From contig JALOBO010000047.1 of NCBI GenBank assembly GCA_023228225.1, positions 1 to 10,785 on the forward strand: 10,785 nucleotides of DNA, read 5' to 3'. Both the position numbers and the translations under genes were made by a program. Below are positions 3,205 through 10,747 of the stretch, piece by piece. The notes below the pieces were generated by a model. That model did not search any database, was not told the origin of the DNA, and saw nothing but the letters and a program-made list of their open reading frames with translations. The number at the start of each line of letters is the position of its first letter. Position 1 is the first letter of the stretch. This DNA comes from Clostridia bacterium (lineage in GTDB: Bacteria > Bacillota > Clostridia > Christensenellales > UBA1242).

Positions 3205-3528
3205 ATGAGGTTAATTTTCATATTAGCTTTTATTTTGATTAGTGTTGTTGTTTTTGCAATATTCGGTATATCGTCTATGTTTCACACAGCAGATGTTACT
3301 GGTGATTGGTTATATGGAAATGCAAAATTAACGTTAAATAATGATGGAACTGGTGTAATGGTGTATATGGCTGGTGATAAAAAATATACAGTAGATGCGT
3401 CTTGGGAAAAAACATCAATGGCTGATGTGTATAAGATTGTTATAATGAATTCGAAAATACCAAGTGATAATTATAAATATCAAGATGGTTATTTGATTGG
3501 TAGCAGTGCTACATTAGTGAGAGGTTAA
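3205..3528 (+). CDS. Membrane-anchored small beta-rich extracellular protein
   Basis: A 107-aa protein. Residues 3-21 form one uncleaved-looking hydrophobic helix, so the rest is probably outside the membrane. The exterior domain begins VTGDWLYGNAKLTLNNDGTG and continues with short alternating strands (YTVDASWEKT, YKIVIM, DGYLIGSS). The G-D-W start plus LTLNNDGTG resembles the small lipocalin-like or calycin-style beta domains often seen in methanogen secreted proteins; this is a resemblance in pattern, not a firm family call. GTGAT at 3195-3199 lies 5 bp before the ATG and supports this start. It is convergent with the next gene, separated by only about 10 bp containing an A-run. Confidence 0.75.
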   Translation: MRLIFILAFILISVVVFAIFGISSMFHTADVTGDWLYGNAKLTLNNDGTGVMVYMAGDKKYTVDASWEKTSMADVYKIVIMNSKIPSDNYKYQDGYLIGSSATLVRG

Positions 3529-4013: not shown

Positions 4014-4030
4014 TACCCCGTAAGGGGGTA
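4014..4030 (+). other. Hairpin flanking the template repeat (CCCC-GTAA-GGGG)
   Basis: TACCCCGTAAGGGGGTA can fold as CCCC / GGGG with a GTAA tetraloop, extended by TA/TA around one bulged G. On the plus strand the loop is of GNRA type. It stands out as a G/C block in very AT-rich sequence and ends 4 bp from the template repeat boundary. Confidence 0.6.
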
Positions 4031-4034
4031 TGTA

Positions 4035-4094
4035 CGGACGCAGAGTTGGCACCGTTACCCATCAGACCGCCACAGTTGTTGCTTCCAGTGGTGA
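4035..4094 (-). repeat. DGR-type template repeat (TR)
   Basis: Read on the minus strand, these 60 bp match the four variable repeats in the 7213-9525 gene. Translated in the VR frame the core is T-G-S-N-N-C-G-G-L-M-G-N-G-A-N-S-A-S. Four codons are AAC, the codon typical of DGR templates because any change at its two adenines yields NNC, which never makes a stop. Against the VRs, a 56-bp core (4035-4090) is identical at 48 positions; every difference falls on one of the eight AAC adenines. The repeat is about 58% G+C, far above its surroundings. It lies 1.2 kb upstream of the RT but points the opposite way, and is bracketed by two hairpins. Confidence 0.95.
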
Positions 4095-4096
4095 TA

Positions 4097-4112
4097 AAGT
4101 AGTAGACTACTT
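4097..4112. other. Hairpin immediately beside the template repeat
   Basis: AAGTAGTAGACTACTT is a perfect inverted repeat (AAGTAGT / ACTACTT around AG), starting 2 bp outside the TR. With 4014-4030 it encloses the TR symmetrically. Confidence 0.6.
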
Positions 4113-4142
4113 AAACTAAAGTAACAAATGTATTGGTTAGAA

Positions 4143-4170
4143 ATTCTTCTGCATGAGAATGCTGAAGGAT
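4143..4170 (+). other. Long hairpin with GAGA (GNRA) loop
   Basis: ATTCTTC pairs with GAAGGAT (one T-G wobble), then a T-T mismatch, then GCAT / ATGC closed by a GAGA loop, giving 11 pairs in 28 bases. The GNRA loop exists only in plus-strand RNA, as for the 4014-4030 hairpin. Confidence 0.55.
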
Positions 4171-4375
4171 AGATTTTACCTAGTATGCACAGTAGTACGA
4201 TTTACGAAATAAATTCAATGTCTTATGACAGCGAGATGTTATTTATAATAAATAGTAATTTTGTAAACTGTTTTGTGGTTTTGACAAATCATTGTAATTA
4301 CAAACATTACTCTTTGTTAAATTGGTATAGAACGATGTTAGTATTAAAACTATTGTTATTGAAAAATGTATCAAA

Positions 4376-4386
4376 GTTTTTATATG
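4376..4386 (-). promoter_or_regulatory. Candidate leftward promoter for a TR-sense RNA
   Basis: On the minus strand CATATAAAAAC is a reasonable TATA box. A transcript from it would begin near 4356 and read leftwards through the TR in the sense that carries the AAC adenines. The support is only a motif in AT-rich DNA. Confidence 0.25.
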
Positions 4387-4409
4387 TCTAAAGAACATAT
4401 TTTTTACAG

Positions 4410-4446
4410 TATAATAGTGTTTACACAGTGTTATGCAAGATGTGAT
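4410..4446 (+). promoter_or_regulatory. Promoter and ribosome binding site fixing the TTG start at 4452
   Basis: TATAATA (4410-4416) would start RNA near 4438. GTGAT (4442-4446) then lies 5 bp before the TTG at 4452, the same site and spacing seen before 1449 and 3205. An in-frame TGA at 4443-4445 rules out a start further upstream, and the next in-frame ATG is 37 codons inside. Confidence 0.5.
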
Positions 4447-4451
4447 TAAAT

Positions 4452-5321
4452 TTGACATCCAACGAATATAGAATTTATTTAGACAAACAAAGTGTTTTGT
4501 TTAAAGATAAGTATAGTATTTCTGAAATTACAAATGGTTCTCTTAAACAAAATTTATGGGCTATGGATATTCGTACTAAATTATTAATTGAGTTTGAAAA
4601 AAATCAAAAAGATTTAAGTTCAGTTTTTGTTAAAAGATTGACTACGTACATTATTTTTATTGATAATGCAAAATGGTGGATTCATTATAATTTAAAAGAA
4701 ATTGATTTTTTAAAATTATTGCAAGACCATTCTGAAATTGATGATACTGTATTATATCAATTTAGTGATGTTTTAAAAAAATCTACTGATAAAATAAACA
4801 CATCTAGTGTTAAAACTGGTGTGTGCGAAATAGTTGAAAATAATTTAAACGTTATTATAAATGATGATGACTTTGAAAAAATAATTATTTTGTGTGACAA
4901 ATCTATAAAATTATTACATTGTTTGAATTCAGCTATTGTTGAACCATATTGTTTTATTATAAATAAAACTGGGTATGAGTGTATCATAAATAAACAAAAT
5001 GTAGACCGTCAAGGAATACTTGAAAATATTACATCTAAATTAATGCGAGCTATGTTTTTTGTATCGTTGATTCAATCGAGTAATAATGTGATTAATCATG
5101 ATGGTTATTTATACGTTAAAGATGGTGAATTATATTGTTCTGTGAAATCACCAGCTCTATATAAAACACTATCTCGTTATTGTTATCGTGAAATGAAAAT
5201 TATTAACTCTAATTTACAAGAAATACGTAATGTATGGAAAAAATATGATTTGTGTGTAACGGATGAAGCTTATGGGTATGTTGAATTAAATTTAAAACCA
5301 GATTGTGTTAAAAATGACTGA
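4452..5321 (+). CDS. Orphan protein in DGR accessory position, coupled to the RT
   Basis: A 289-aa soluble protein, probably starting at TTG 4452. It is Lys, Asn and Ile rich and looks largely helical, with the N-terminal third (about 30-95, LKQNLWAMDIRTKLLIEFEKNQ on through WWIHYNLKEIDFLKLL) suggesting long helices and the C-terminal part (about 210-285) containing short strands (HDGYLYVKDGELYCSVKS). I cannot match it to Avd, the roughly 125-aa four-helix accessory protein of canonical DGRs, nor to other known accessories. Its last codons overlap the RT start by 8 bp (ATGACTGA), so the two are made together. Position and coupling suggest it helps the RT, for example by binding the template RNA. 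That is inference. Confidence 0.8.
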   Translation: MTSNEYRIYLDKQSVLFKDKYSISEITNGSLKQNLWAMDIRTKLLIEFEKNQKDLSSVFVKRLTTYIIFIDNAKWWIHYNLKEIDFLKLLQDHSEIDDTVLYQFSDVLKKSTDKINTSSVKTGVCEIVENNLNVIINDDDFEKIIILCDKSIKLLHCLNSAIVEPYCFIINKTGYECIINKQNVDRQGILENITSKLMRAMFFVSLIQSSNNVINHDGYLYVKDGELYCSVKSPALYKTLSRYCYREMKIINSNLQEIRNVWKKYDLCVTDEAYGYVELNLKPDCVKND

Positions 5322-6699
5322 TAAAAATTGGAACAATGATTTAGATTGGAAAAACGTTCATTATCGTGTTTATAAAATACAAACACGAATCGCTAAAGCA
5401 ACTCGCGATGGTGATTGGGAACGTGTAATAAAACTTACGAAATTAGTTCTTAATTCATATTATTGTAAACTTGTAGCAGTTAGACGTGTTACAAGTAAAA
5501 AAGTTAGACGAAAAGCTGGTGTAGATGGTGTGTTTTGGGAAACTGATAAAGAAAAATTTAAACAAGTTAGTTTGTTAAATTATCGTGATTATGCACCAAT
5601 GCCGTTTAAACGATTATATGTTCCGAAAGACCATGATAGAAGTAAATTAAGACCTTTATCAATTCCTGTAATTTTTGATAGAGCAATGCAGGGTTTATTG
5701 TTAATCGCAATTGACCCAATTGTTGAAACTTTATCAGAACCTCATTCGTATGGTTTTAGATTATACCGAAATTCACAAGACACTATTCGTGATGTTTGTA
5801 ATAGTTTTAAATTTTGTTCTGGAAATAGTTGGGTTTTAAAAGCAGATGTTCGCGAATGTTTTGACAGAGTGTCTCATTCTTGGTTATTAGAGAATTTGCC
5901 TGTTGATAAAAAGTTGTTGAAATCTATATTGAAATGCGGATATATACAAAATAATCGTTTTTATGCAACAAAAGAAGGTGTGCCGCAAGGTGGTGTGTTA
6001 TCACCAGTATTAATTAATTTTGTGTTAACTGGTATGGAAACAATATTAAAATATGAATATCCTAATGTTCATATGGTTAGATTTGTTGATGATTTTTTAT
6101 TTTCTGGAGAAAGTGAGCAGGAATTGCAAGCTGTTTTAAATGAATTGAAAAGTTTTTTAAAAGTTAGAAATCTTACGTTATCTGCTGAAAAAACAGAAAT
6201 TAAACGCATTTCGGAAGGCGTTGATTTTATTGGTTGGCATTTGCAAAAACAAAATAATGTGTTAGAGATATCGCCCACTGCGTTATCTTTAAATGAAGTG
6301 TTTATACGAATTGTAAATACTGAATTACAAGCCAATCATTGGTCGCCAGACGCATTTATTACAAAATTAAATTATATTGTTGCTGGTTGGGGGTATTATC
6401 ATGCGTATGATTGTTTAGAACATAATTTTATAGATTTAGATATGGCGGTTGCCGATTTAGTTTGGAAGTGGTTATGCAAAAAATATCCAACGATGAGTGA
6501 ACTAGATATCGCGCATACTTTTTGGAATGTGTGGAATGGGAATGATAGATGTTATTTTTACAATAATATAAAATTATTACGGTTTCAAGATATTGAAGTG
6601 AGAAGCCCTGAAGAATTAATTTTAACAAAAAATGCCTATTTAGACCGCGCGTATTTTAGAAATAGAAAGCGCGTGTATAAAGAACGATTGTTAGTATAA
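5314..6699 (+). CDS. Group II intron-type reverse transcriptase (maturase-like), no HNH domain
   Basis: A 461-aa RNA-directed DNA polymerase; ATG 5314 is preferred over the in-frame GTG at 5305. Residues 12-78 match the N-terminal RT domain of group II intron proteins (DWKNVHYRVYKIQTRIAKA ... KAGVDG). The RT core shows YVPKDHDRSKLRPLSIPVIFDRAM split over 102-125, SYGFRLYRNSQDTI (145-158), WVLKADVRECFDRVSH with the first catalytic Asp at about D178, EGVPQGGVLSP (221-231) and the active site RFVDDF (256-261), then LTLSAEKTEI (287-296) and DFIGWHL (304-310). Residues about 320-440 resemble the maturase/thumb domain (LNYIVAGWGYYHAYDC, VWKWLCKKYP). The HNH endonuclease that often follows is missing. 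Canonical DGR RTs instead carry [I/V/L]GxxxSQ. It is probably the enzyme that rewrites VR1-VR4. Confidence 0.92.
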   Translation: MTDKNWNNDLDWKNVHYRVYKIQTRIAKATRDGDWERVIKLTKLVLNSYYCKLVAVRRVTSKKVRRKAGVDGVFWETDKEKFKQVSLLNYRDYAPMPFKRLYVPKDHDRSKLRPLSIPVIFDRAMQGLLLIAIDPIVETLSEPHSYGFRLYRNSQDTIRDVCNSFKFCSGNSWVLKADVRECFDRVSHSWLLENLPVDKKLLKSILKCGYIQNNRFYATKEGVPQGGVLSPVLINFVLTGMETILKYEYPNVHMVRFVDDFLFSGESEQELQAVLNELKSFLKVRNLTLSAEKTEIKRISEGVDFIGWHLQKQNNVLEISPTALSLNEVFIRIVNTELQANHWSPDAFITKLNYIVAGWGYYHAYDCLEHNFIDLDMAVADLVWKWLCKKYPTMSELDIAHTFWNVWNGNDRCYFYNNIKLLRFQDIEVRSPEELILTKNAYLDRAYFRNRKRVYKERLLV

Positions 6700-6710
6700 T
6701 TTAAAATAAT

Positions 6711-6736
6711 AATTTTTCTTAATTTATTTTTATTTA
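6711..6736 (+). terminator. T-rich terminator after the RT
   Basis: Runs of T (TTTTTCTTAATTTATTTTTATTT) begin about 14 bp after the RT stop, without a clear hairpin; U-tract termination of this type is usual in archaea. There is no group II intron domain V-like hairpin here. Confidence 0.4.
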
Positions 6737-6740
6737 ACAA

Positions 6741-6755
6741 ATACCTTTAAATATA
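6741..6755 (+). promoter_or_regulatory. Promoter of the secreted-protein/target operon (ATACCTTT element)
   Basis: ATACCTTTAAATATA ends 24 bp before the ATG at 6779, so the message should be leaderless or nearly so. The element is shared with other genes in the window, whereas the RT operon lacks it. Confidence 0.65.
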
Positions 6756-6778: not shown

Positions 6779-7216
6779 ATGGTTAATATTAAGGTCAGTA
6801 AAAAAAGATTATTGTTTATTTGTGCGGTTGTGTTTTGCTTATGCACGATGTGTGTATGCGCGGTATCTGCTGAGGAAATTGTTAAAGAACCTGTTCTCAA
6901 AGAACCTGTTACGAAATTACAAATCGAAGACAATATTCGCTTAGCCGTAGGTTTTGATGCAAAAATCGATATTGTTGTTAAATCTGAAGTTTTCACACCA
7001 ATAGAACAATTACAAAAACAAACTGAAATTTTAGGTTACACGCAGTCCCTTGATAAGTGGATGGCTTATAAAATGAAGGTTACAGAAGATTATTCACCAG
7101 TTAAACCAGTTGATTTGTTAGATGATTCTGATGGTGAATCTCAATGGAACACGTATCTTATTAATTATTATGCTCATTATAAACCAACTGGTGACTTTGG
7201 CGGTAAGATAGTATGA
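6779..7216 (+). CDS. Small secreted protein, translationally coupled to the DGR target
   Basis: A 145-aa protein with a clear signal peptide: basic KVSKKR, hydrophobic core to about residue 28, and a VSA cleavage site after residue 31. The mature part begins acidic and contains a short KEPV duplication (VKEPVLKEPV), then IRLAVGFDAKIDIVVKSE, which looks beta-like, and ends with NYYAHYKPTGDFGGKIV. It has no second membrane segment and no known family. Its TGA overlaps the ATG of the variable surface protein (ATGA at 7213-7216), so the two are made in linked amounts. It may be a chaperone, subunit or anchor of the target protein; this is inference from coupling only. Confidence 0.8.
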   Translation: MVNIKVSKKRLLFICAVVFCLCTMCVCAVSAEEIVKEPVLKEPVTKLQIEDNIRLAVGFDAKIDIVVKSEVFTPIEQLQKQTEILGYTQSLDKWMAYKMKVTEDYSPVKPVDLLDDSDGESQWNTYLINYYAHYKPTGDFGGKIV

Positions 7217-9525
7217 ATAATTCTTGGAAAAAAATTACATTTGTTGTATTGTTGATATGCGCGTTTTTTATTGCACCAGCGTGCGCGACAGGGACAGGCG
7301 CAATCGATGATCCATACCTGATTACAAATTCTACTGAATTACAATCAATTCAAAACGATTTAAGCGCGTATTATCAGTTAGTTAACGATATTGATTTAAC
7401 GGGTGTTACTTGGACACCTATTGGTAATACTTCAACACCATTTTTCGGGCACGTAGATGGTGACGGTCATACTATTTCAAATTTAGTATATTCTAATATT
7501 AGTGTAGATAATGTTGGTTTATTTTCAATTGCGGGTAGCGGAGCATCGTTTGTTGATGTTACATTAGATTCTTGTTCCATAACTGGTAATAGTTATGTTG
7601 CGGGTTTAATTGGACAAGTTATTATGAGTGTTGGAGCACACGACGATTGCGTTATCACAAATGTCGATGTAACAAATTGTGATATTTATGCAAACACTTC
7701 GTATGCAGGTACGCTTGTTGCCAGAACGTATACAAACGCGTATACTAAAATAAGCTACTGTGATGTTTCATGTGGAAATGTCACCACTGGAAGCACCAAC
7801 TGTGGCGGTCTGATGGGTAACGGTGCCGACTCTGCGTCCGTGCTTGAAATGAATGACTGCACTGTTGATGCAATGGTAATCATCACTGGAAGCTCCAGCT
7901 GTGGCGGTCTGATGGGTTACGGTGCCGGCTCTGCGTCCGTGCTTGAAATGAATGACTGCACTGTAATGAATTCTGTGATAACCACTGGAAGCAACGCCTG
8001 TGGCGGTCTGATGGGTCACGGTGCCTACTCTGCGTCCGACTGCACTGTCACTGCATGCACTGTGACGAACTGTGTTATCACCACTGGAAGCATCAACTGT
8101 GGCGGTCTGATGGGTTACGGTGCCATCTCTGCGTCCGTTGCAAATGTCACTGACTGCACTGTCACTGAATGCACTGTATATGGAACAACCGGAACAGCGA
8201 GCGGGTTGGTAGCATTTGGTGATGCTACGTCGAATTTAACAATAAATAATTGCGAGGTCGATTATACTACAATTTTAGCAGGCAGTGGTAGCACAGCAGG
8301 TTTATTGGTTACTGCGGCAGGAAATACTACAATTACAAATTGTGATATATCAAATTCGAACATAAAAGCAACAGTGAATTTTGCACCAGCAGGAGCATAT
8401 GACCCAGCAACATGTACGGCGAGTGGAATAACTAATAATGCTACAAATTATTTAGAAGCTAAAACGTTTACTGTGACAAGAACAACCGAAACGATGAGTT
8501 GTGCGTTTACTGTAGAAAAATTAGGTGGGGCTGTTACGGTAGGTGGTGATGGTCATGTTACAAGCGGACATTTATGGGTGTTTGGTGATGGAGACTTTAG
8601 CGCTGATCTAGCTACAACAACATCGCATACCTATGCTATTGGCGGTACTGAAACATCAAGCATAACGCTTACAAATAAATTTGTGCCAGCAGGTTCGGTT
8701 CTTACTAAAATATTTACATTAGATACAACAAAATTATTGTCAAATATTAGTATTTTACCAACAACCCTGATTGGTGATGAAACATTAACTTTTAACGCAT
8801 CGAGCGATACCGCCGCGACGTTAGATTGGCAAATTAGTATTGATGGAGTATGGACAACAATTGCAACGGCAACGAGTCTGGGGAATAACGCTGTAGTTAC
8901 AGCAACATATGTTGTACCAAACACATTACCAGATAATACGTATTTATTTAGACTTGATGCTAACAATATTGCAGGTCACACATATAGCCCATCTACGTTG
9001 GTGACAATCAATCACTATCCATTAGCAACTATTACATCACCAACCACTGGTGATAAAACTATCGAACATACTGAATATACCTTTACAGCAGATTATTTAT
9101 TTACACCTACCGCGTATCTTTGGTCATTTGGGGATGGAGCTACTGCCACCACAGCATCAGCCACGCACACATACACTGCGTCGGGTGATTATAATATTAC
9201 ATTGACTGTCACAAACGTCTATGGCAGTTCAACAACGTCGTTACAGCAAACCACAGAAGCAACATACTATAGTTATACTCTTAATGAAGCTAGTGAGACC
9301 ATGACTGGCGCGATGGGGCTTGTAGCACTTATCCCGCTTGTGTTAGCTGGAATTTTAGTATTTACTATAATTAAAGGCGGCGCCAACCTCACACCGCAAA
9401 TCGTGGCATTGTTGGTTACTATTGGTGCCGTGGTTGTAGTTATCTATATTATTATCATATTAGGAGGGTTTGTAGATAAATCGTCACTTGAAATAATGGA
9501 AATTGTTGCTAATTTCAATAAATAA
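7213..9525 (+). CDS. DGR target: variable GLUG-repeat / PKD surface protein with C-terminal membrane anchor
   Basis: A 770-aa exported protein. The signal peptide covers about residues 1-25 (cleavage near ACA-TG). Residues about 30-110 (DPYLITNSTELQSI, FFGHVDGDGHTISNL) plus GLUG-type repeats to about 365 suggest a right-handed beta-helix. Within it, four 33-residue repeats (190-321) each contain GS-x-x-CGGLMG-x-GA-x-SAS, where x marks the DGR-variable residues: 195/196/203/206 (T,N,N,D), 228/229/236/239 (S,S,Y,G), 261/262/269/272 (N,A,H,Y) and 294/295/302/305 (I,N,Y,I). Regularly spaced cysteines may form disulfides. Two PKD-like domains follow (WVFGDGD at 455; WSFGDG at 637) around an Ig-like stretch. 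Two hydrophobic helices (about 703-720 and 730-752) anchor the C-terminus. It is likely a receptor-binding or display protein on a virion or cell envelope. Confidence 0.92.
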   Translation: MNNSWKKITFVVLLICAFFIAPACATGTGAIDDPYLITNSTELQSIQNDLSAYYQLVNDIDLTGVTWTPIGNTSTPFFGHVDGDGHTISNLVYSNISVDNVGLFSIAGSGASFVDVTLDSCSITGNSYVAGLIGQVIMSVGAHDDCVITNVDVTNCDIYANTSYAGTLVARTYTNAYTKISYCDVSCGNVTTGSTNCGGLMGNGADSASVLEMNDCTVDAMVIITGSSSCGGLMGYGAGSASVLEMNDCTVMNSVITTGSNACGGLMGHGAYSASDCTVTACTVTNCVITTGSINCGGLMGYGAISASVANVTDCTVTECTVYGTTGTASGLVAFGDATSNLTINNCEVDYTTILAGSGSTAGLLVTAAGNTTITNCDISNSNIKATVNFAPAGAYDPATCTASGITNNATNYLEAKTFTVTRTTETMSCAFTVEKLGGAVTVGGDGHVTSGHLWVFGDGDFSADLATTTSHTYAIGGTETSSITLTNKFVPAGSVLTKIFTLDTTKLLSNISILPTTLIGDETLTFNASSDTAATLDWQISIDGVWTTIATATSLGNNAVVTATYVVPNTLPDNTYLFRLDANNIAGHTYSPSTLVTINHYPLATITSPTTGDKTIEHTEYTFTADYLFTPTAYLWSFGDGATATTASATHTYTASGDYNITLTVTNVYGSSTTSLQQTTEATYYSYTLNEASETMTGAMGLVALIPLVLAGILVFTIIKGGANLTPQIVALLVTIGAVVVVIYIIIILGGFVDKSSLEIMEIVANFNK
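7781..7840 (+). repeat. Variable repeat VR1
   Basis: 60 bp matching the TR. The four NNC codons read ACC, AAC, AAC, GAC: two of eight adenines changed (A to C, A to G). All 48 other core positions equal the TR. The first base upstream of the shared TCACC also differs from the TR by A to G. Confidence 0.95.
7880..7939 (+). repeat. Variable repeat VR2
   Basis: The NNC codons read TCC, AGC, TAC, GGC: six of eight adenines changed, the most diverged copy. The core is otherwise identical to the TR; outside the core one C to T (ATC for ACC) is present. Confidence 0.95.
7979..8038 (+). repeat. Variable repeat VR3
   Basis: The NNC codons read AAC, GCC, CAC, TAC: four of eight adenines changed. The core is otherwise identical to the TR; upstream TAACC replaces TCACC. 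Confidence 0.95.
8078..8137 (+). repeat. Variable repeat VR4
   Basis: The NNC codons read ATC, AAC, TAC, ATC: three of eight adenines changed. This copy has the longest match to the TR on the 5' side, identical from TTATCACC (about 8075) onward. Confidence 0.95.
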
Positions 9526-10707: not shown

Positions 10708-10728
10708 ATACCTTTTTATGTTTATAAA
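10708..10728 (+). promoter_or_regulatory. Promoter of the truncated rightmost gene (ATACCTTT element)
   Basis: ATACCTTTTTATG (10708-10720) followed by TTTATAAA ends about 20 bp before the ATG at 10748. It is arranged back to back with the promoter of the leftward operon, forming a divergent control region at 10635-10747. Confidence 0.5.
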
Positions 10729-10747
10729 ACAAACATAAAAATACTAA

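Follow-up and report, generated by a model that had tools for sequence, protein, structure and literature searches.

An adenine-specific template repeat and four tandem variable repeats adjoining a reverse transcriptase of the group II intron type

Introduction

The closest described systems to the locus reported here are the diversity-generating retroelements (DGRs) of the BPP-1 type, with which it shares one template repeat (TR), variable repeats (VRs) within a target gene, differences at the TR adenines, a reverse transcriptase (RT) and an accessory gene beside the TR, and a likely surface-binding target. The portions of two papers available to us describe DGR RTs as one clade with a single origin (PMC8144416) and as enzymes whose domain 4 carries (I/V/L)GxxxSQ and whose domain 5 carries Y(V/M)DD (PMC4244168). 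Several VRs within one ORF are also on record, in 31 of 271 multi-VR DGRs according to an excerpt of PMC6642488; the initial annotation of this DNA had stated that DGRs usually have one VR, or a few VRs in separate genes. The archaeal DGRs of ANMV-1 (PMC4372165, as far as that text was accessible) and of the virus record vir215 (locus L158) likewise perform adenine-specific diversification, and an archaeal or archaeal-virus setting is possible for our locus as well; however, the archaeal DGR enzymes sit inside the DGR clade in the same part of PMC4372165, whereas the RT described here does not.

A second group of relatives comprises the RVT_N-type group II RT/maturases (L015 and L018 in our set, and PDB 6me0), which have the same domain layout and are about 34-40% identical to our enzyme. 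Unlike them, the present RT is accompanied by no recognisable intron RNA, stays below the TIGR04416 cut-off, has V for A in YxDD, and is linked to a TR and an accessory gene. The domesticated group II-like enzyme G2L4 is a further case of a group II-type enzyme given another use; it works in double-strand break repair, and the accessible portion of PMC12337344 mentions no TR/VR system. Among the matches listed by a literature search, read as titles and starts of abstracts and drawn from open-access articles (preprints and most subscription journals lie outside this collection), none described a TR/VR system whose enzyme is of the group II type.

Here we describe such a combination in a 10,785-bp stretch of DNA (contig JALOBO010000047.1), referred to in full as the window. 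The presence of several VRs in one gene is already known, and the unexpected element is the enzyme lineage.

Results and discussion

Template and variable repeats

The TR and the four VRs (Table 1) were present as initially annotated. The VR starts are spaced by 99, 99 and 99 bp, in phase with units of 33 residues, and all four VRs are in frame in the 770-aa ORF. Within the 56-bp core, comparison of the TR with the four VRs revealed differences in 15 of 48 adenine cells and in 0 of the 176 other cells, third codon positions included. All three kinds of change at TR adenines occur (A to T six times, A to G five times and A to C four times). The annotated confinement of core differences to TR adenines was confirmed. 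When the alignment was extended to the full 60 bp, differences numbered 15 in the 52 adenine cells and 2 in the 188 others (Fisher p 1.8e-9), the latter two at the edge positions 2 and 4. The earlier count of 15 differences thus stands, whereas the eight varying AAC adenines and 48 identical core columns given with it are actually seven and 49, since core position 40 keeps its A in every VR. The TR adenines at positions 3, 6, 11, 12 and 33 are also the same in every VR; position 11 is a silent third base, and position 33 lies in a Met codon.

Table 1. Features of the window, in window coordinates
Feature	Position	Strand	Remarks
Terminator-like hairpin, directly after TR	4014..4030	minus	counterparts in L014 and L020
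TR	4035..4094	minus	60 bp; AAC AAC / AAC / AAC codons; recurs in L014 and L020
Predicted 5′ leader of TR RNA	4095..4390	minus	5′ end near 4390, guessed by eye from a TATA-like string
Accessory protein, new family	4452..5321	plus	289 aa; TTG start
Reverse transcriptase, group II intron type	5314..6699	plus	461 aa; RVT_N, RVT_1, GIIM
Target protein	7213..9525	plus	770 aa; tandem 33-residue units, PKD domains, hydrophobic ends
VR1	7781..7840	plus	
VR2	7880..7939	plus	
VR3	7979..8038	plus	residues 269 and 272 differ from allele P0130
VR4	8078..8137	plus	residues 294, 295, 302 and 305 differ from allele P0130

The VR cores are pairwise identical at 51-56 of 60 positions, whereas the 39-bp spacers of the same units agree at only 15-28 of 39. 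Since the spacers have diverged while the cores remain alike, something homogenises the cores without reaching the spacers.

A pair-finder of the same kind detected a TR/VR pair in six of seven DGR control loci (L001 and L154-L159; L155 was missed, and L001 had already been found earlier by that pair-finder), and in none of the 78 loci with group II-type RTs, all drawn from the same genome scan. The pairs in the six DGR controls measure 82-122 bp, in contrast to the 60-bp TR of the window. Two of these controls are ordinary DGRs in their own right. The IMG/VR contig L001 has its repeats at 1-82 and 520-601, with mismatches at 11 adenines and at no other base over 82 bp, and L158 (the vir215 record, host Methanomassiliicoccales) has a TR/VR pair at 4313-4434 and 4587-4708 adjoining a DGR-type enzyme.

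The target protein and its second allele

Only the PKD domains of the target protein reached Pfam cut-offs, and GLUG was weakly matched in its relatives; this fits the earlier remark that DGR targets often have C-type-lectin or Ig folds. From its hydrophobic ends, repeat units and PKD domains, the target is likely a displayed protein that binds something, a role that we offer as a guess. A 145-aa ORF (6779-7216) with a hydrophobic N-terminal stretch and no family match overlaps the target start by 4 bp.

A second allele of the target, P0130 (17,333-bp contig; source 'ena'), was retrieved from the protein database. The window target and P0130 disagree at 8 of 770 residues, six of which fall among the 16 TR-adenine codons (p 7.7e-10), and the remaining two are residues 73 and 97. 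Inside the VRs, the differences between the alleles lie on TR-adenine codons only: VR1 and VR2 are identical, VR3 is altered at its last two variable codons only, and VR4 at all four. The pattern in VR3, one case so far, would match a cDNA begun at the TR's 3′ side and left incomplete. The annotated proposal, in which adenine-specific transfer from TR to VRs affects four stacked units in phase, is therefore supported, with the second allele differing mainly at TR-adenine codons.

In each of seven further relatives of the target (P0131-P0137), three or four units of 32-33 residues stand in tandem. In 33 units from nine related proteins, all 132 variable residues were NNC-compatible; units without the CGGL signature, and P0138, were left out of this count. 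The chance of meeting no K, Q, E, M or W among the 132 residues, calculated from the proteins' own composition, is 6e-6, for a sample that is not independent because the proteins are related and two of them are alleles.

Gene conversion is known to affect tandem repeats, and it might keep the units alike while selection varies a few surface codons; the minus-strand copy would then be a stray repeat and the enzyme, with its maturase domain, the remnant of a worn group II intron. We find this account scarcely credible in view of the 0 of 176 non-adenine core differences, third codon positions included, and of the restriction of the second allele's VR differences to TR-adenine codons. Moreover, the TR is identical at 52 of 60 positions between the window and the related contig L014, whose enzyme is 57% identical to the window RT, and no intron RNA was recognised by the Rfam search described below.

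Lineage of the reverse transcriptase

The only RT found in the window is the group II-type enzyme of Table 1. It scored 83.1 bits for RVT_N, 125.5 for RVT_1 and 36.3 for GIIM, all above the Pfam cut-offs. Its top match in the PDB was a chain named 'Maturase reverse transcriptase' (6me0, E 2e-89), from what we take to be a group II intron structure, while 8ub7, named 'Reverse transcriptase' and presumably the BPP-1 DGR enzyme, matched at 4.8e-9. Against TIGR04416, the NCBIfam group II model, the RT scored 250.2 bits, below the cut-off of 300. PHROG 1423 matched both the window RT and the DGR enzyme of vir215, and the PHROG library thus cannot separate them.

In a tree of 62 enzymes, the window RT grouped with those of L014 and P0002 (100/99), within a set of 32 (91/90) that lies beside 23 ordinary RVT_N-type group II enzymes; the seven DGR enzymes were separate, at 100/100. 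A clade joining the three closest enzymes with the DGR enzymes was not rejected on this tree (p 0.21). We also used a wider tree, consisting of a subset of the earlier rows plus 11 more (9 distinct; one above the retron model cut-off, the rest unclassified). On this tree, a single clade of the enzyme set and the seven DGR enzymes was rejected (p-AU 1.0e-5) and one of the enzyme set and the RVT_N-type group II enzymes was not (p 0.48), the long DGR branches being a weakness that carries into this test. These sequence comparisons assign the window RT to the group II intron lineage and place it outside that of the DGRs.

Active-site motifs

The domain 4 motif reads QGGVLSP in the window RT. SP is present in 32 of the 33 clade rows, P0030 has QGGVYAP instead, and SQ occurs in 0 of 33, so that the DGR motif (I/V/L)GxxxSQ was found neither in the window RT nor in any clade row. 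The Q of QGxxxSP is kept in the window RT, where the four DGR enzymes displayed have I, V or L; adenine errors by this enzyme, if made, would thus use another residue set. Two enzymes of the clade, P0024 and P0028, have R in place of this Q (ARGGIISP and SRGSIASP). Domain 5 is FVDD in the window and YVDD in L014, with the V that DGRs have and, in the window, F replacing Y.

Three positions set the clade apart from ordinary group II enzymes. Position 97 is F in 30 of 32 clade enzymes, L in 23 of 23 group II enzymes and Y in all seven DGR enzymes. Position 175 is K in 24 and R in four of 32 clade enzymes, E in 22 of 23 group II enzymes and K in 7 of 7 DGR enzymes, and position 257, the x of YxDD, is V in 31 of 32, A in 23 of 23 and M in 5 of 7, respectively. 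The departure from group II residues towards DGR-like ones suggests convergence on an error-prone state, which we put forward as a lead rather than a test, since the three positions were picked from 27 listed.

According to the initial annotation, the locus would be a DGR unusual in its number of VRs, and the enzyme would then have to be a distant member of the DGR clade. The adenine signature is indeed the same, the V in YxDD is a stated DGR feature in the excerpt of PMC4244168, and the smaller clade test gave p 0.21; nevertheless, we judge this reading very improbable and do not retain it, because the enzyme has RVT_N and GIIM domains, QGGVLSP with no SQ in 33 of 33 clade rows, and a maturase chain as its top PDB match, and because the DGR set stands separate at 100/100 and the joint clade was rejected in the wider tree. 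What separates the window enzyme from those of the BPP-1 type DGRs is its lineage, its RVT_N and maturase domains and its lack of the SQ motif.

Search for intron RNA

At curated thresholds, Rfam recognised intron RNA domains in all six group II control loci, and in none of the window, L014 and L020; in the window, no such domain appeared at E values up to 5. Since L020 stops inside the enzyme gene, the search there covered the 5′ side only. The locus therefore combines adenine-only VR differences, as in DGRs, with an enzyme placed outside the single DGR clade, and an RT with a maturase domain, as in group II introns, with neither intron RNA in Rfam nor a TIGR04416 score above the cut-off. Although the TR/VR output is DGR-like, we thus assign the system to neither of the two classes, DGRs or group II introns.

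The cassette in other contigs

A protein search placed the accessory protein in a family of 9 proteins, the window's own included (the alignment took in 10). Scans of family libraries yielded no curated family above cut-off, and a fold search with a low-confidence model gave no clear match. In a single BLASTP comparison, the accessory protein showed no similarity to the Avd of L156, which may mark a further difference from DGRs. The 383-aa ORF at 1345-2496 of L096, ahead of a helicase-like ORF, is weakly like the N-terminal part of the accessory protein (E 6e-6), and the L096 stretch examined shows no RT match; L097-L099 also match the accessory protein weakly.

The TR, the accessory gene and the same type of enzyme adjoin in all three contigs, namely the window, L014 and L020. 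In L014 (6,354 bp, 'Clostridiales' MAG), the TR (3326-3385) is followed by the accessory gene, then the enzyme and lastly a target of which the contig end leaves only the start; the target profile matches this TR too (E 1.2e-6). In L020 (3,610 bp, 'Clostridia' MAG), a TR-like sequence from 1765, more diverged from the window TR than that of L014, precedes the accessory gene and an enzyme gene of which the first 256 residues are present. No VRs were seen for the TRs of L014 and L020, where they are beyond the contig ends or absent, and hence TR, enzyme and VRs are found together in DNA in the window only. The TR is on the same strand as the enzyme in L014 and L020 and on the opposite strand in the window, and this flip in orientation makes the TR RNA look like an independent unit. 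Furthermore, the accessory protein P0125 starts with residues that read like an in-frame TR, which hints at a fourth locus with this arrangement. For both the accessory protein P0127 and the clade enzyme P0004, the listed source is a 33,040-bp contig of a 'Bacilli bacterium', probably one and the same.

A canonical DGR RT encoded elsewhere could, in principle, act in trans on the TR and VRs, with the adjoining group II-type enzyme as a passenger. In its favour are the nature of the window as a 10.8-kb fragment, the shortness of the L014 and L020 contigs and the usual accuracy of group II enzymes. We nevertheless consider a trans-acting DGR RT unlikely, given that TR, accessory gene and enzyme type are neighbours in three of three contigs despite the flip of the TR, and that P0127 and P0004 are listed with the same length of contig. 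In addition, the bins of L014 and L020, which are fragmentary and maybe mixed, yielded no DGR RT when queried with a DGR enzyme; the single match was the group II-type enzyme of L014 itself (24% identity, E 1.2e-7), with none in the L020 bin, whereas the vir215 control was recovered at 1.2e-35.

The predicted template RNA and the proposed mechanism

The leader contains sequence blocks common to the window, L014 and L020. This leader 5′ of the TR, kept in three loci, and the tandem VRs in 33-residue units are two further features that distinguish the window from DGRs. Terminator-like hairpins after the TR numbered 1, 2 (overlapping) and 1 in the window, L014 and L020, against 0.2, 0.2 and 0.1 expected. 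Leader, TR and hairpin together folded better than shuffled sequences in the same three loci (z -2.69, -4.07 and -2.25), partly because of the terminator-like hairpin. The predicted topology at the start of the TR is alike in all three, with leader UUGUU paired to TR AACAA, a mismatch, a second helix and an inner hairpin; in the window, the predicted pairing joins leader UUGUUAC (4127-4121) with TR GCAACAA (4082-4076). The sequence of the inner hairpin varies from locus to locus, and three sequences are too few for a claim of covariation. For none of the three loci did the leader:TR duplex surpass those formed with shuffled leaders, and a sigma-70 scan gave promoter-like sites no more frequently than in shuffles.

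We think it likely that the locus is a mutagenic-retrohoming cassette, in which an RT of the group II lineage, and no DGR RT, copies the TR RNA with adenine errors and thereby rewrites the four tandem units; we infer that the window RT carries out this copying. According to this proposal, an RNA of about 300 nt, made up of the structured leader, the TR and the terminator-like hairpin, would be transcribed, and the window RT, perhaps with the accessory protein, would make cDNA from the 3′ side of the TR. Misincorporation opposite TR adenines would produce NNC codons, and the cDNA would replace the VR cores by homology. The leader/TR helix may end copying, and it may mark the copy stop, as the adenines 5′ of the paired AACAA (positions 6, 11 and 12) are unaltered. 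The constancy of these three adenines and of the one at position 33 nonetheless counts against the proposal.

Adenine-only TR/VR differences next to an enzyme of the group II lineage make it likely that targeted protein diversification was invented twice. We lean towards the broader scenario in which adenine-specific mutagenic retrohoming arose on two occasions. In the second, a group II RT would have lost its intron, gained a structured template RNA, an accessory protein and DGR-like active-site residues, and come to use one template to reprogram GLUG-like tandem units (3 or 4 per protein), in mobile elements of archaea and perhaps of bacteria. If true, this would break the one-clade rule for DGR enzymes stated in the part of PMC8144416 available to us, and the defining motif in the excerpt of PMC4244168. 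Such systems would likely escape searches that start from DGR enzymes, and their comparison could test an old question, namely which changes turn an accurate RT into one that errs at A only. They would also be an example from nature in which a single template varies several repeat units within the same binding protein.

Host and genomic context

A histone-fold gene at 1449-1700 encodes a small protein of the archaeal-histone family (E 3e-9), which is a hint of an archaeal element. The related contigs are binned as Clostridiales, Clostridia or Bacilli, and misbinning is possible. The element may be a virus or a plasmid; family scans of ten and of seven window proteins named no virion protein. 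Finally, AT-rich strings around ATACCTTT/AAAGGTAT lie ahead of several genes, at 2742-2764, 6733-6755 and 10708-10731 (inverted repeats I17 and I18), and these are perhaps a common promoter element.
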